NCBI GenBank assembly: GCA_017161705.1
Contig: JADFCW010000013.1
Location: 1 to 43,118, forward strand
From: Candidatus Sumerlaeota bacterium
Lineage (GTDB): Bacteria; Sumerlaeota; Sumerlaeia; JADFCW01
Reading direction: 5' to 3'
Length of the DNA: 43,118 nucleotides
The notes under the pieces were generated by a model. The model worked only from the letters and a program-made list of their open reading frames with translations. It was not told where the DNA came from and did no database searches. The translations under genes were made by a program, and so were the position numbers. This document shows, piece by piece, positions 35,998 to 41,360 of this stretch (the stretch's first letter is position 1; each line of letters starts with the position of its first letter).

Positions 35998-37121
35998 AAG
36001 CCATTCGCAAGACTGTGACGATCCTTGTGGCGGTTGGCGCGCTGGCCGTCGTGATGTTTTGGATGTCCGGCGGATTTGAGCACAAGATCGAACCGGGCAA
36101 AATCGAGCCGGAAACGCGCCGCGTCGGCGACTTGCCCACCGAAAAAATCCACGCCATCGTCGAAATGGAAACCGCCGAAGTTGTCGGCACGCTTCGCGCT
36201 CAACGCCGTACCGACGTCTCCGCCAAGATCATGGCGGCCATTGCCGATATTCCCGTCAAAGCCGGCGAAAAAGTGAAAAAGGGGCAGGTGCTTGTGCGGC
36301 TGGACGACCGCGACATGCAGGCGCGGGTCGAGCAGGCCAAAAAAGCCCTCGAGGCGGCGCAGGCGCAGGCCAAGCAACTCGGCGACGATCTCAAACGCTA
36401 TGCCGAAGTGCTGAAAGCCGGCGCCATGACCAAACAGCAATATGATCAGCAGGAAGCTGCCTACAAGGTGGCGCAAGCCCACGTCGAACGCGCCCAGCAA
36501 GCCGTCCGCGAAGCCGAGGTCGCTCTCTCTTACACGGTCATCGAGGCGCCAACCGACGGCGTGGTCGTGGACAAACATGCCGACAAAGGCGACACCGCTT
36601 CGCCCGGACAGCCGCTCCTGACCCTCTATGATCCCAGCCAGCTGCGTCTGGAAGCGCCGGTGCGCGAAAGCCTTGCCACGACGTTGCACGTCGGCGATCC
36701 GCTGCGCGTCAAGATCGAGGCGCTCGATCTGGAGGTCGAGGGCCGCGTGGATGAAATCGTCCCGCAGGCCGAGGCGGCCAGCCGCTCGGTTCTGGTCAAA
36801 GTGGCCGTGCCGAAACACCCGCGCATGGTCGAGGGACAGTTCGGCCGGCTGAGCATTCCGACGGGCCAGCGGCGGCGGCTGTGCATGCCGCTCTCGGCGG
36901 TGATCCGCATGGGCCAGCTGACGTTTTGCGATGCCGTGACGACCGGCGGGGTGCTCGAACGCCGGCCGATCAAACTGGGCGAACACAGCGAGTTCGGGCG
37001 GATCGAAGTGATTTCGGGACTCAAGGCCGGCGACGTGGTGGCGCTCTACGGTCCGCCGCCGGAGGCTATTCCTGAGAAGCTGCCGGGAGGACGGTATGTG
37101 GAGGAGGAGCCGAAGCCATGA
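35994..37121 (+). CDS. RND efflux periplasmic adaptor (HlyD/MFP family), second system
   Basis: The ATG at 35994 overlaps the preceding stop by 4 nt; AAAAGGAGAAG lies upstream. The 375-residue product has one N-terminal membrane helix 'TVTILVAVGALAVVMFWM' without a cleavage site, then a lipoyl half-motif 'AAIADIPVKAGEKVKKGQVLVRLDDRDM', a helical hairpin ('VEQAKKALEAAQAQAKQLGDDLKRY') and the second half 'IEAPTDGVVVDKHADKGDTASPGQPLLTL'. The barrel domain and membrane-proximal 'VISGLKAGDVVALYG' complete it. It would connect the following RND pump to an outer-membrane factor. No TolC gene is in this operon, so it may share the one at 16078. Confidence 0.92.
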   Translation: MKAIRKTVTILVAVGALAVVMFWMSGGFEHKIEPGKIEPETRRVGDLPTEKIHAIVEMETAEVVGTLRAQRRTDVSAKIMAAIADIPVKAGEKVKKGQVLVRLDDRDMQARVEQAKKALEAAQAQAKQLGDDLKRYAEVLKAGAMTKQQYDQQEAAYKVAQAHVERAQQAVREAEVALSYTVIEAPTDGVVVDKHADKGDTASPGQPLLTLYDPSQLRLEAPVRESLATTLHVGDPLRVKIEALDLEVEGRVDEIVPQAEAASRSVLVKVAVPKHPRMVEGQFGRLSIPTGQRRRLCMPLSAVIRMGQLTFCDAVTTGGVLERRPIKLGEHSEFGRIEVISGLKAGDVVALYGPPPEAIPEKLPGGRYVEEEPKP

Positions 37122-40100
37122 AGCGCCCCGGCCAGGAATCCCTCACCCAGCGCATTGTCGAGTTGTTTCTGCGCGGCAACCTGTCGGTCATGCTGATCCT
37201 GATTTCGCTGCTGGCCGGCGCGGTCGCGCTTTTGGTGACGCCGCGCGAGGAAGAGCCGCAGATCGTCGTGCCTCTGGCCGACGTCTATGTGCACGTTCCC
37301 GGCGCATCGGCCGAGGAAGTCGAGCGCCAGGTCGCCACACGCCTCGAAAAGATGCTCTATCAGATAGACGGCGTCGAGTATGTCTATTCGATGTCGCGGC
37401 CCGGAATGGCTATTGTGACCGTGCGGTTCTACGTCGGCGAGGACCGCGAGGACTCGCTGGTCAAAATTTACAACAAAGTCCAATCGAACATAGACCAGGT
37501 GCCGCCGTCCGTCGCCGGCTGGGTGGTCAAACCCGTCGAAATTGACGACGTCCCCATCGTCAATCTTACGCTGTACAGCGACCGGTATGACGACACGGTT
37601 CTGCGGCGCATCGCCGAAGAGATCGAGATCAAACTGCAGTCGGTAAAGAACACCAACAAGACGCAGGTGATCGGCGGCCGCCCGCGGCGCGTGCGGGTCG
37701 AACTCGATCCAGCACAGCTGACGTCGCGGAATCTGTCGCCCCTCGAAATTGTGCGCGCGCTGCAAGCCGCGAATATCACATTGCCGGCGGGCAAATTCGA
37801 GCAAACCAACCTCGAATATCTAGTGGACGCCGGCACGTTCCTCGACGGCGTCGAGGGCATCCGCAACCTTGTCGTCGGTGTGCACGGCGGCCGGCCGGTC
37901 TATCTGCACGAAGTCGCCCAGGTCCTCGATGCGCCGGCCGAGCCGGATACGTACACGTGGATTGGATTTGGTCCGGCGGCGCACGATGTATCCGAGTCGC
38001 TGAAGCAGGCGGCGGCCCGGGCGGGCGGATTTCTGCCGGCCGTTCATATCGCCGTGGCCAAGAAACGCGGCACCAACGCCGTCTGGGTGGCCCGTGCCGT
38101 CGAGGCAAAACTCGAAAGTCTGAAAGCCTCGCTCATTCCCGACCATGTCTATGTGCGCACGACGCGCAACTACGGCGAGTCGGCCAACGAAAAGGTCAAC
38201 GAGCTGGTGCACGAGCTGATGCTCGCGCTCATTATCGTTATCGGGCTGATCTACATGGCGATGGGCTGGCGCGAAGCGATCACCGTGGCCGTGGCGGTTC
38301 CGATCACATTCGCCCTGACGCTGCTGCTCAACTATTTCTGCGGCTATTCGATCAACCGTGTGACGCTGTTCGCGCTGATACTTTCCCTCGGTCTGGTGGT
38401 GGACGATCCGATCGTGGACGTCGAGAACATCTATCGCCATTTCAAAATGCGCAAGGAGCCGCCGCTGCGCGCGGTTCTCACGGCGGTCAACGAGGTTCGC
38501 CCGCCCGTCATCCTCGCCACCTTTGCCGTGATTATCTCGTTTGTGCCGATGTTTTTCATCACCGGCATGATGGGGCCGTATATGGCGCCGATGGCGCTCA
38601 ACGTGCCCGTGGCCATGTTCATGTCGCTCGTGGTCGCGTTCACGATCACGCCGTGGATGGCCTACCACGTGCTGAAGGGCGAATACGGCAGGGCGGAAGA
38701 AGAGGCGTGGGAGTTGGAAAAAAGCACCATTTATAAAATCTATAATTTCGTCCTGCCGCCGTTTCTTTACTCGCGATTCCTGGCATGGGGCCTGATCGTA
38801 GTGCTGCTGCTTCTGCTCGGCTGGGCCGGATGGCTCGCCGCCGTCCGATTGGTGCCGCTCAAGATGTTGCCCTTCGACAACAAGAACGAATTTCAAATTG
38901 TCATCGATATGCCGGAAGGAACAACGCTCGAAGAAACCGACACTGCCGCGCGCGCCCTGGCCGACTATCTTCGCACCGTCCCGGAAGTTACCGATTTCCA
39001 GACTTACAGCGGCACAGCCTCGCCGATGGACTTCAACGGCCTGGTTCGCCACTACTACATGCGGCGCGGCTCCAATGTCGCCGACATCCGCGTCAACCTT
39101 GCCGAGAAGAAGGAGCGCGCGCAGCAAAGCCACGCCCTCGTGCTGCGGCTTCGCAACGACCTGACCCGCATCGCCCGCGAGCATGGCGCCAACATCAAAC
39201 TCATCGAGGTGCCGCCGGGACCGCCCGTCATCGCCACCGTTACCGCCGAGGTCTATGGCCGCCCCGACCACCAATACAGCGACCTGATCGGCGCGGCCAA
39301 AGTCGTTCGCAAGCGCTTGGAGCAGGAAGCCGGCGTCGTGGACGTGGACGATACGGTCGAGGACGATCAGGTCAAACTGGTCTTCGTGACCGACAAGGAA
39401 AAGGCGGCATTGAACGGTGTTTCGACGGAAATGGTCGCCCAGACCGTCCGCCTTGCGCTCGACGGCATGGGCGTCGGATCGCTGCGCGTGCCTAACGAGG
39501 TCAATCCGCTGATGATCGAAGTGCGACTGCCGCGCGAAAGCCGCTCAGGCGTCGAAGAGCTCAAGCGCCTCTATGTCAAAGGCATGACAGGTGCGCTGGT
39601 GCCTCTGGCCGAGATCGGATACTTCGAGGAGACCATCGAGGACAAGACGATCTATCACAAGAATCTCGAACGCGTGGTGTATGTGTTTGCCGAGATGGCC
39701 GGCCGCGCGCCGGCCGAGGCGATTTTGGACATCATGGCGGACCGGGAGACCGGACAAGTCGGACAAGCTAGACAGGTCAGACCCGTTGCCCATCGCAGCT
39801 ACCTTCGCATGGGCGCGGGCATTCCCTGGGTGCTCGGAGAGGGATTCCGCGTCGCGTGGGCCGGCGAGGGCGAATGGAAAATTACCGTGGATGTGTTCCG
39901 CGACCTCGGCTTAGCATTCGCCGCCGCGTGTCTGGGCATTTACATTCTGCTTGTCTATCAAACCGGCTCCTACTTCATGCCGCTCATTCTGATGATCTCG
40001 ATCCCGCTGACGATGATCGGCATCATGCCGGGATTCTGGCTTCTCAACCTTATCAGCAATCGGCCGGTCGGTGGCTTCGACAATCCGGTGTTTTTCACAG

Positions 40101-40453
40101 CGACGGCCATGATCGGCATGATCGCACTGTCGGGCTTGGCGGTGCGAAACGCCATTCTGCTGATCGAGTTTGTACACGAGGCGTTGAAGCGGGGGAGTAC
40201 GCTGTTCGACGCGCTGTTGCACTCGGGCGCGGTGCGGTTCCGGCCGATCGTGCTCACAGCGGGCGCGGCGATGCTCGGCGCGTGGCCCATTACGCTCGAC
40301 CCGATCTTTTCCGGCCTGGCGTGGGCCTTGATCTTCGGCCTGACCGTTTCGACAGCCTTTACGCTGCTCGTGATCCCGGTCGTGTATTGGATGGTGTATG
40401 CGAACCGTCCGGGGCATGGGCTAAAACGCGACGATGAAGAAGGAACCGCATAG
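37118..40453 (+). CDS. RND-family inner membrane transporter, second system
   Basis: The 1111-residue pump overlaps the adaptor by an ATGA junction. It begins with 'GNLSVMLILISLLAGAVALL' and then a porter loop 'VPLADVYVHVPGASAEEVERQVATRLEKML'. The proton-relay pair is Asp429-Asp430 in 'SLGLVVDDPIVDVENIYRH'. Later helices include 'IALSGLAVRNAILLIEFVHEAL' and 'ALIFGLTVSTAFTLLVIPVVYWMVY'. It is about 80 residues longer than the first pump, mainly through an extended loop after helix 6 ('EYGRAEEEAWELEKSTIYKIYNF') and an insertion near residue 876-889 that is encoded by a 9-nt repeat array. Substrate unknown. Confidence 0.94.
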   Translation: MKRPGQESLTQRIVELFLRGNLSVMLILISLLAGAVALLVTPREEEPQIVVPLADVYVHVPGASAEEVERQVATRLEKMLYQIDGVEYVYSMSRPGMAIVTVRFYVGEDREDSLVKIYNKVQSNIDQVPPSVAGWVVKPVEIDDVPIVNLTLYSDRYDDTVLRRIAEEIEIKLQSVKNTNKTQVIGGRPRRVRVELDPAQLTSRNLSPLEIVRALQAANITLPAGKFEQTNLEYLVDAGTFLDGVEGIRNLVVGVHGGRPVYLHEVAQVLDAPAEPDTYTWIGFGPAAHDVSESLKQAAARAGGFLPAVHIAVAKKRGTNAVWVARAVEAKLESLKASLIPDHVYVRTTRNYGESANEKVNELVHELMLALIIVIGLIYMAMGWREAITVAVAVPITFALTLLLNYFCGYSINRVTLFALILSLGLVVDDPIVDVENIYRHFKMRKEPPLRAVLTAVNEVRPPVILATFAVIISFVPMFFITGMMGPYMAPMALNVPVAMFMSLVVAFTITPWMAYHVLKGEYGRAEEEAWELEKSTIYKIYNFVLPPFLYSRFLAWGLIVVLLLLLGWAGWLAAVRLVPLKMLPFDNKNEFQIVIDMPEGTTLEETDTAARALADYLRTVPEVTDFQTYSGTASPMDFNGLVRHYYMRRGSNVADIRVNLAEKKERAQQSHALVLRLRNDLTRIAREHGANIKLIEVPPGPPVIATVTAEVYGRPDHQYSDLIGAAKVVRKRLEQEAGVVDVDDTVEDDQVKLVFVTDKEKAALNGVSTEMVAQTVRLALDGMGVGSLRVPNEVNPLMIEVRLPRESRSGVEELKRLYVKGMTGALVPLAEIGYFEETIEDKTIYHKNLERVVYVFAEMAGRAPAEAILDIMADRETGQVGQARQVRPVAHRSYLRMGAGIPWVLGEGFRVAWAGEGEWKITVDVFRDLGLAFAAACLGIYILLVYQTGSYFMPLILMISIPLTMIGIMPGFWLLNLISNRPVGGFDNPVFFTATAMIGMIALSGLAVRNAILLIEFVHEALKRGSTLFDALLHSGAVRFRPIVLTAGAAMLGAWPITLDPIFSGLAWALIFGLTVSTAFTLLVIPVVYWMVYANRPGHGLKRDDEEGTA
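39745..39783 (-). repeat. 9-nt tandem repeat inside the RND gene (reverse orientation)
   Basis: Read on the minus strand the units are TGTCTAGCT, TGTCCGACT, TGTCCGGTC with a degenerate leading TCTGACC. They encode 'ETGQVGQARQVRP' in the plus-strand gene. Being a multiple of three, they do not disturb the frame. The same unit occurs in opposite orientation in the next gene. Confidence 0.7.
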
Positions 40454-41258
40454 AGTCGCCCTCGCGGCGGTTGCTCTTGCCGCGGCCCAACTGTTGGTGT
40501 TTTCCTGTACGCTCGTTCGTCTGGGCGAGCGGGCGCTTGTCGGCCGGCCGGAGCTCCCTGTGTCGCTCACACAGGCGCGCGTGCGCGTGAGTTACAGCCT
40601 GCGCCACGGGACGTTCAAGGTCTCGCGCCTGTTCAACTCGATCTCCTTGTCCAAAATGGCCACCATCCTGATCCTTGGCGACCGGTCGTATTCATCGTCC
40701 GATACCCGGTGCGTCAATGTGACAATCCGCCGCGACGCCCTCCGTATGATCATTCGCTCGTCGTTTCCCGACGGGCCGTCGTGGGACACGCAGTTTGAAA
40801 TCCGTATCCATCCCAACGAAGGCAAACCTGCGCTCGATACACTGCTGGGCGAGGCCTACGGCGTATGTATCACGTGCCGCCTGACCACGGCCGTGCGAAC
40901 CGCTGCCCTACCCTCTTTCGCGCTCACCGGACTTGTCCACGCAGAGAAGGAAGCGATGGCTTGCCGCATCGGATCGTTCAATGCGGAAAAAATGTCCGAC
41001 TCGTCCGACCTGTCCGACTCATCTGACGTGTCCGACTTTTTCGATCCCAAGCGGCGCGACATCCTTCACCTCAAGGCGCAGCGCGTCAAGATCGGCCCCG
41101 CCGCGAAGCACCCGGGCGGCAGAATATTTCCGATCCGCCTCGAATTCGTCGGGTGCGCAGCGCTGGATTTCCAGGAGAAGATTTATTTGGAAAACCCGAC
41201 GGAGAATCAGGGGAACCGGGCAAAGCCGACATCCCCGCTCGATCCGTCGGCTGGGTGA
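40434..41258 (+). CDS. Unknown exported or lipid-anchored protein at the end of the RND operon
   Basis: The 274-residue product overlaps the RND stop by 20 nt, starting at ATG 40434 ('MKKEPHRVALAAVALAAAQLLVFSCTLVRLG'). The N-terminus is a signal with a near-lipobox VFSC, so it may be a lipoprotein. I do not recognise the rest, which is mixed alpha/beta: 'KMATILILGDRSYSSSDTRCVNVTIRRDALRMIIR', 'TLLGEAYGVCITCRL', 'FPIRLEFVGCAALDF'. Residues near 187-201 are 'MSDSSDLSDSSDVSD', encoded by a 9-nt repeat array. Position after the pump suggests an accessory part of the same system; there is no domain to name. Confidence 0.7.
   Translation: MKKEPHRVALAAVALAAAQLLVFSCTLVRLGERALVGRPELPVSLTQARVRVSYSLRHGTFKVSRLFNSISLSKMATILILGDRSYSSSDTRCVNVTIRRDALRMIIRSSFPDGPSWDTQFEIRIHPNEGKPALDTLLGEAYGVCITCRLTTAVRTAALPSFALTGLVHAEKEAMACRIGSFNAEKMSDSSDLSDSSDVSDFFDPKRRDILHLKAQRVKIGPAAKHPGGRIFPIRLEFVGCAALDFQEKIYLENPTENQGNRAKPTSPLDPSAG
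40993..41037 (+). repeat. 9-nt tandem repeat inside the unknown gene
   Basis: Five consecutive units: TGTCCGACT, CGTCCGACC, TGTCCGACT, CATCTGACG, TGTCCGACT. They are in frame and give the Ser-Asp-rich 'SDSSDLSDSSDVSD'. The consensus TGTCCGACT is the same as that of the array in the RND gene 1.2 kb upstream, on the other strand. Confidence 0.85.
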
Positions 41259-41284: not shown

Positions 41285-41360
41285 TGGAGGTGACGGGCGG
41301 ATTCGAACCGCCGAATAGAGGTTTTGCAGACCTCCGCCTTAGCCACTTGGCTACGTCACC
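41285..41360 (-). tRNA. tRNA-Cys (anticodon GCA)
   Basis: Minus-strand sequence folds as a complete cloverleaf: acceptor GGTGACG/CGTCACC, D-stem GCC/GGC, anticodon stem GAGGT/ACCTC with loop CTGCAAA (GCA at 41327-41325), T-arm GGCGG-TTCGAAT-CCGCC. The discriminator base is U, which is the identity base for cysteine. CCA is encoded in the DNA (41287-41285). A T6 run begins one base beyond the CCA. Confidence 0.97.

Follow-up and report, generated by a model that had tools for sequence, protein, structure and literature searches.

The two arrays of 9-nt repeats found in neighbouring genes of a Candidatus Sumerlaeota contig (JADFCW010000013.1, of which the whole 43,118-nt stretch analysed is called the window below) probably belong to a dispersed family of minisatellites that evolves by slippage, is filtered for location by selection, and resembles REP elements in placement without involving a RAYT. 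We give this reading a probability of about 70%. It would work as follows. The arrays, about 60 per genome, are made of tandem 9-nt units with a palindromic GTC-N-GAC core and a free 2-nt spacer. Each of them would occupy a long-standing site, where slipped-strand mispairing, or short unequal exchange between units, would add or remove whole units. Selection would filter location: most surviving arrays would lie within some tens of bases past a stop codon, and those in genes would be confined to places that tolerate an insert of three-residue period (loops, linkers, tails), preferably in the hydrophilic x-Ser-Asp frame.

A dispersed family of 9-nt tandem repeats

Alignment of all arrays gives a unit composed of a constant heptamer, GTC-N-GAC, which is palindromic except for its centre, and of two free bases. 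The repeat is best described as (GTCNGACNN)n, a nearly palindromic heptamer at a strict 9-nt spacing. We counted it across the 4.67-Mb host genome (G000), a check proposed in the original prediction. The two-unit pattern GTCNGACNNGTCNGAC was found 94 times, against 2 for the reversed control, and GTCCGACNNGTCCGAC 45 times, against 0. Both counts are far above chance. Since an array has around 1.5 two-unit matches (76 in 50 arrays), we estimate that the 94 matches correspond to a total of roughly 60 arrays, which are located both inside and outside genes. For comparison, another genome of the same genus (G001, 86% nucleotide identity across the locus) has 75 two-unit matches, against 2 for the reversed control.

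For the following analyses, arrays were sampled from the listed pattern hits, with a seed of two perfect units. In the two genomes taken together, 183 of the 186 close pairs of cores are 9, 18, 27 or 36 nt apart; the 9-nt search pattern favours this spacing, and the same register is also kept outside the seeds. Arrays are thus made of head-to-tail units of constant length, as are minisatellites (VNTRs). Intergenic arrays also keep the 9-nt period, which therefore belongs to the element itself and does not stem from the reading frame. The window has 10 lone copies of TGTCCGACT with at most one mismatch, for 7.8 expected, which is no enrichment. Hence, the signal lies in the tandem arrangement. 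There are 13 occurrences of GTCNGAC in the window in all, and outside arrays the core is at about chance level.

Two arrays in neighbouring genes of the window

The first array (40993-41037, plus strand) has five (GTCNGACNN) units, in the order TGTCCGACT CGTCCGACC TGTCCGACT CATCTGACG TGTCCGACT, i.e., with three exact copies of TGTCCGACT. It is matched by TRF with period 9, and better with period 18 (88% matches, score 69). The array is in frame in the ORF at 40434-41258 (plus strand), where it encodes SDSSDLSDSSDVSD. The 274-residue product has no Pfam match. Its hydrophobic N-terminus with a Cys may be a signal peptide or that of a lipoprotein. Of the 41 genomes searched, none but the two congeners has this protein, and the G001 orthologue is 77% identical. 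Directly downstream of this gene lies a tRNA-Cys (GCA), at 41285-41360 on the minus strand.

The second array (39745-39783, minus strand) comprises about four degenerate units. It is located in the gene of an RND efflux pump of 1111 residues (37118-40453, plus strand) of the AcrB family (ACR_tran, PF00873, E=1e-156), which matches the structures of MexK and other RND pumps and whose closest named homologues include Candidatus Sumerlaeota MAGs. In the frame GTC NGA CNN, the array encodes GQVGQARQV at around residue 879. It has one exact unit (39757-39765, minus strand) and two intact GTCNGAC cores, and TRF found no match in it. Taken alone, this array is much weaker than the one at 40993-41037 and is unconvincing in isolation. 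It is confirmed because the congener has a longer array at exactly the same site, with two more units than the window. In the neighbouring gene, the orthologue of G001 also carries an array at the same site, with one unit fewer. The same 9-nt repeat is thus really present, in frame, in two neighbouring genes, as had been proposed: the sequence and TRF establish it for the array at 40993-41037, and the congener for the one in the pump. The opposite orientation of the two arrays had been read as evidence against a simple duplication. It carries little information: the core is a palindrome but for its central base, and arrays in either orientation are common across the genome.

The pump segment is not a clean insertion when compared with array-free relatives. 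Among 80 pump homologues, the loop bearing the array ranges in length from 0 to several tens of residues. In the nearest homologue that lacks an array, this loop is about as long or longer and consists of different residues. As length and sequence vary in all homologues, the array sits in a loop that was permissive already. The repeat codons used for the segment are the same in the congener (CAA GTC GGA), and not unrelated ones, which upholds its origin as a DNA repeat.

Conserved sites and fast turnover of units

Using the fetched array regions and one BLAST search, 32 of the 51 arrays of the host genome could be placed at orthologous sites in G001. At least two units were present at 30 of these 32 sites, and at least three at 29, against around 3% of random segments with at least two units. 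Both window sites are among those common to the two genomes. A clean empty site would mark an insertion; two of the 32 congener sites have no array, and one of these has a remnant unit. While the sites are conserved, the number of units differs between the two genomes at both window sites and at most of the 32 paired sites, as expected of VNTRs.

Among aligned units of the two genomes, identity is 90% in the core, 55% at the central base, and 43% in the spacer; selecting units by their core match raises the core value and leaves the spacer value unaffected. Fourfold sites of the pump are 72% identical. Hence, the 2-nt spacers change faster than fourfold sites. Within arrays, spacers are identical in 17% of adjacent units and in 22% of those at lag 2, versus 9% expected for random pairs. 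This excess of identical neighbouring spacers fits the prediction of local tandem duplication. The arrays are old, fixed loci with a fast turnover of whole units, for which slippage or unequal exchange is the probable process. Slippage alone does not explain why one core is common to about 60 sites, nor why the core is constant beside variable spacers. In addition, the core may be under selection, or sequence may be copied from array to array.

Placement after stop codons and RNA folding

To locate the arrays, genes were called with a purpose-made codon-usage model. We could classify 97 arrays in the host genome and G001, whose arrays are not independent samples: 57 are intergenic (around 58%) and 40 are genic (around 41%), in fetched sequence that is about 86% coding. 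The intergenic arrays lie between co-directional (51), convergent (5), or divergent (1) genes, and the background of gene pairs (258, 36, and 25, respectively) is mostly co-directional too. In the co-directional intergenic arrays, the median start is around 11 nt past the upstream stop codon, and 30 of the 51 start at most 15 nt from it. Where at least 60 nt were free, 20 of 28 arrays were at most 30 nt from the stop, more than under random placement (p=0.016 with 40 nt before the next start kept clear), and a test on the mean distance gave p=0.0007; these p-values are somewhat optimistic, because orthologous arrays were counted in both species. A similar tendency was found in G010, from another family (5 of 5 arrays), and the bias was not seen in G329, in a small sample of six tandem arrays. 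The orientation of co-directional arrays relative to the genes shows no strong bias (27 with Y on the sense strand, 16 with R, and 3 mixed).

These results qualify the proposal that the repeat tolerates coding sites. Some arrays are indeed genic and in frame, but they are a minority in largely coding sequence, and most intergenic ones are just past stop codons. We infer that the positions of arrays are filtered by selection. The most interesting alternative is that they are REP-like functional elements, in which units in the RNA past the stop codon would pair with each other and act on the termination of translation or transcription or on the stability of the mRNA 3' end; copies in coding sequence would be by-products. 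Their placement would then recall that of the REPs of E. coli, which are concentrated 1-20 nt past ORFs and repress translation when no more than 16 nt separate them from the stop codon (PMC12306157). However, the stop-side position may simply reflect the avoidance of promoters or ribosome-binding sites of the next gene, and this alternative has to accommodate the genic arrays and the six arrays of G329.

Folding also bears on this alternative. Compared with shuffled sequence, the arrays of the host genome and G001 have only a slight advantage in folding (mean z -1.0). The central base is homogeneous within these arrays, and pairing units would therefore form C.C or G.G mismatches. Elsewhere in Sumerlaeota, arrays of other families can form perfect hairpins according to their predicted folds, two of them terminator-like. 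In G030 and G014, the predicted hairpins are strong (mean z -3.5; z -9.7 and -6.8), the central base changing from purine to pyrimidine along the array and creating inverted repeats. Two copies in G030 (L363, 2028-2061 and 3618-3651) have a 15-bp stem and a T-run directly after the stop codon of an atpD-like frame. The congener G021 has no array at the end of its atpD (L376), which was the one useful orthologous site that could be aligned between G030 and G021, the rest being too diverged. A T-run after the array or an A-run before it was found in only 6 of 51 arrays of the host genome and 4 of 41 of G001, i.e., without an excess of T-runs. Intrinsic terminators were rejected as a general explanation, since they fit the two G030 sites and similar G014 arrays, and not the arrays of the host genome and G001. 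Strong hairpins in some families stand beside weak folding in the genus of the host. As the main explanation, we consider a REP-like functional element unlikely. Within the slippage-based reading that we prefer, a mild REP-like role of RNA structure past stop codons is possible by analogy.

Patchy occurrence across lineages

The exact three-unit pattern was found in 8 of 40 Sumerlaeota genomes, with 9 to 34 matches each, and reversed controls were all zero. There are 23 matches in G030 versus none in G021, of the same genus. No three-unit arrays were found in 20 distant genomes. Among 36 named genomes collected through the pump search, two were positive: G061 (identical to G010, with the same match positions; JAFGJS01, Ca. 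Sumerlaeota Zod_Metabat.292) and a MAG of the PVC group (G080). The phylum of the latter is probably Verrucomicrobiota-type, judging from named members such as Kiritimatiellia, Lentisphaerae, and Verrucomicrobia MAGs. In this phylum, 72 of 388 genomes were positive, with up to 828 matches. The arrays of G329 are long and homogeneous (e.g., GTCCGACTT x12), and their period is partly 10 nt, which is what slipping minisatellites would be expected to show. This genome, the one with 828 three-unit matches, has minisatellites of 12-13 units at L410 7-114, L412 11900-12016, and L413 3738-3845. The stretches examined in G457 and G282 were without arrays.

The original prediction had suggested an actively mobile or templated mini-repeat, in which an enzyme or a template would write units into new sites. 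The very patchy occurrence described above is what one might expect from it. Furthermore, the genes next to arrays in other families almost all differ from those in the host genome and G001, so these sites arose separately. Yet the sites are shared in 30 of 32 cases within the genus, and the orthologous sites of the congener being already array-bearing, recent mobility is not indicated. Genes of the Y1_Tnp type (RAYT-type) were present in 7 of 8 array-positive and in 21 of 32 array-negative genomes, and their presence does not track that of the arrays. Their neighbourhoods in the five positive genomes examined (G000, G001, G010, G030, and G014) were without arrays. A RAYT/REP mobiliser was rejected for want of any such association, and we find active writing of units into new sites very unlikely.

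Arrays inside genes

A few arrays are found inside genes because 9 nt keep the reading frame. The idea of a DNA-level repeat family entering coding sequence, with a unit that preserves the frame, was borne out. The frame is x-Ser-Asp (SDx) in 31 of the 40 genic arrays, x-x-Thr in 6, and Val-x-Gln in 3. Protein-level selection for Ser-Asp-rich linkers as the origin, with similarity in DNA being secondary, would fit the majority of SDx frames, but it is contradicted by the use of three frames and by the intergenic arrays, which are the most numerous and have an identical core and 9-nt period, and can be practically dismissed.

Relation to known repeats

The arrays share with REP/BIME elements and their RAYT the features of being short, palindromic, dispersed, mostly extragenic, and near upstream stop codons (PMC12306157). 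They differ in that REPs are hairpins of around 20-40 nt, whereas the arrays consist of 9-nt tandem units with a 7-nt core. In addition, many copies of GTCNGAC are genic and in frame, folding is weak in the genus of the host, and the flanking by a cognate RAYT that is typical of REPs was not found at the Y1_Tnp genes examined. Cyanobacterial STRR heptanucleotide repeats have short tandem units and a conserved heptamer and are dispersed in genomes, like the GTCNGAC arrays. They differ in sequence and period from the arrays described here, with their GTCNGAC core, free 2-nt spacer, and strict 9-nt period. PARCEL repeats are also palindromic tandem repeats, patchy across clades and in frame in proteins; they are coding repeats of 25 residues, whereas our arrays have a three-residue unit and are mostly non-coding. 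Rickettsia palindromic elements are found between and inside genes and are frame-compatible. These elements are long (about 100-150 nt) compared with the 9-nt tandem units.

We found no description of the repeat in the open-access literature searched. We file it among the dispersed bacterial short tandem repeats, as a new variant, and not as a REP. The arrays could also be an undescribed class of post-stop-codon elements in Sumerlaeota and Verrucomicrobiota-type bacteria, kept because their palindromic core functions in RNA or DNA, seeded at new sites by a process unrelated to RAYT, and spilling into protein linkers. This proposal is tentative and we see it as rather unlikely. Distantly related bacteria have one and the same short core in tens to hundreds of copies, yet most of their relatives lack it. 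The arrays offer a natural series in which to follow the seeding of dispersed short repeats, their settling past stop codons, and their leakage into proteins as three-residue periodic segments. Annotators should bear in mind that a Ser-Asp-x run in a genome of this kind can be a DNA repeat instead of a selected domain.

Three-unit arrays were also observed in at least 120 stretches of IMG/VR viral contigs (L236-L355). One array-bearing viral contig was checked and had no phage match; host DNA, proviruses, and misclassified contigs cannot be told apart as the source of these arrays. Some stretches are very dense, such as L273 with 6 arrays in 6.7 kb. Finally, the same hairpin array is present at two near-identical loci of G014, with 7 units in L039 and 6 in L055, a difference in unit number within one genome.
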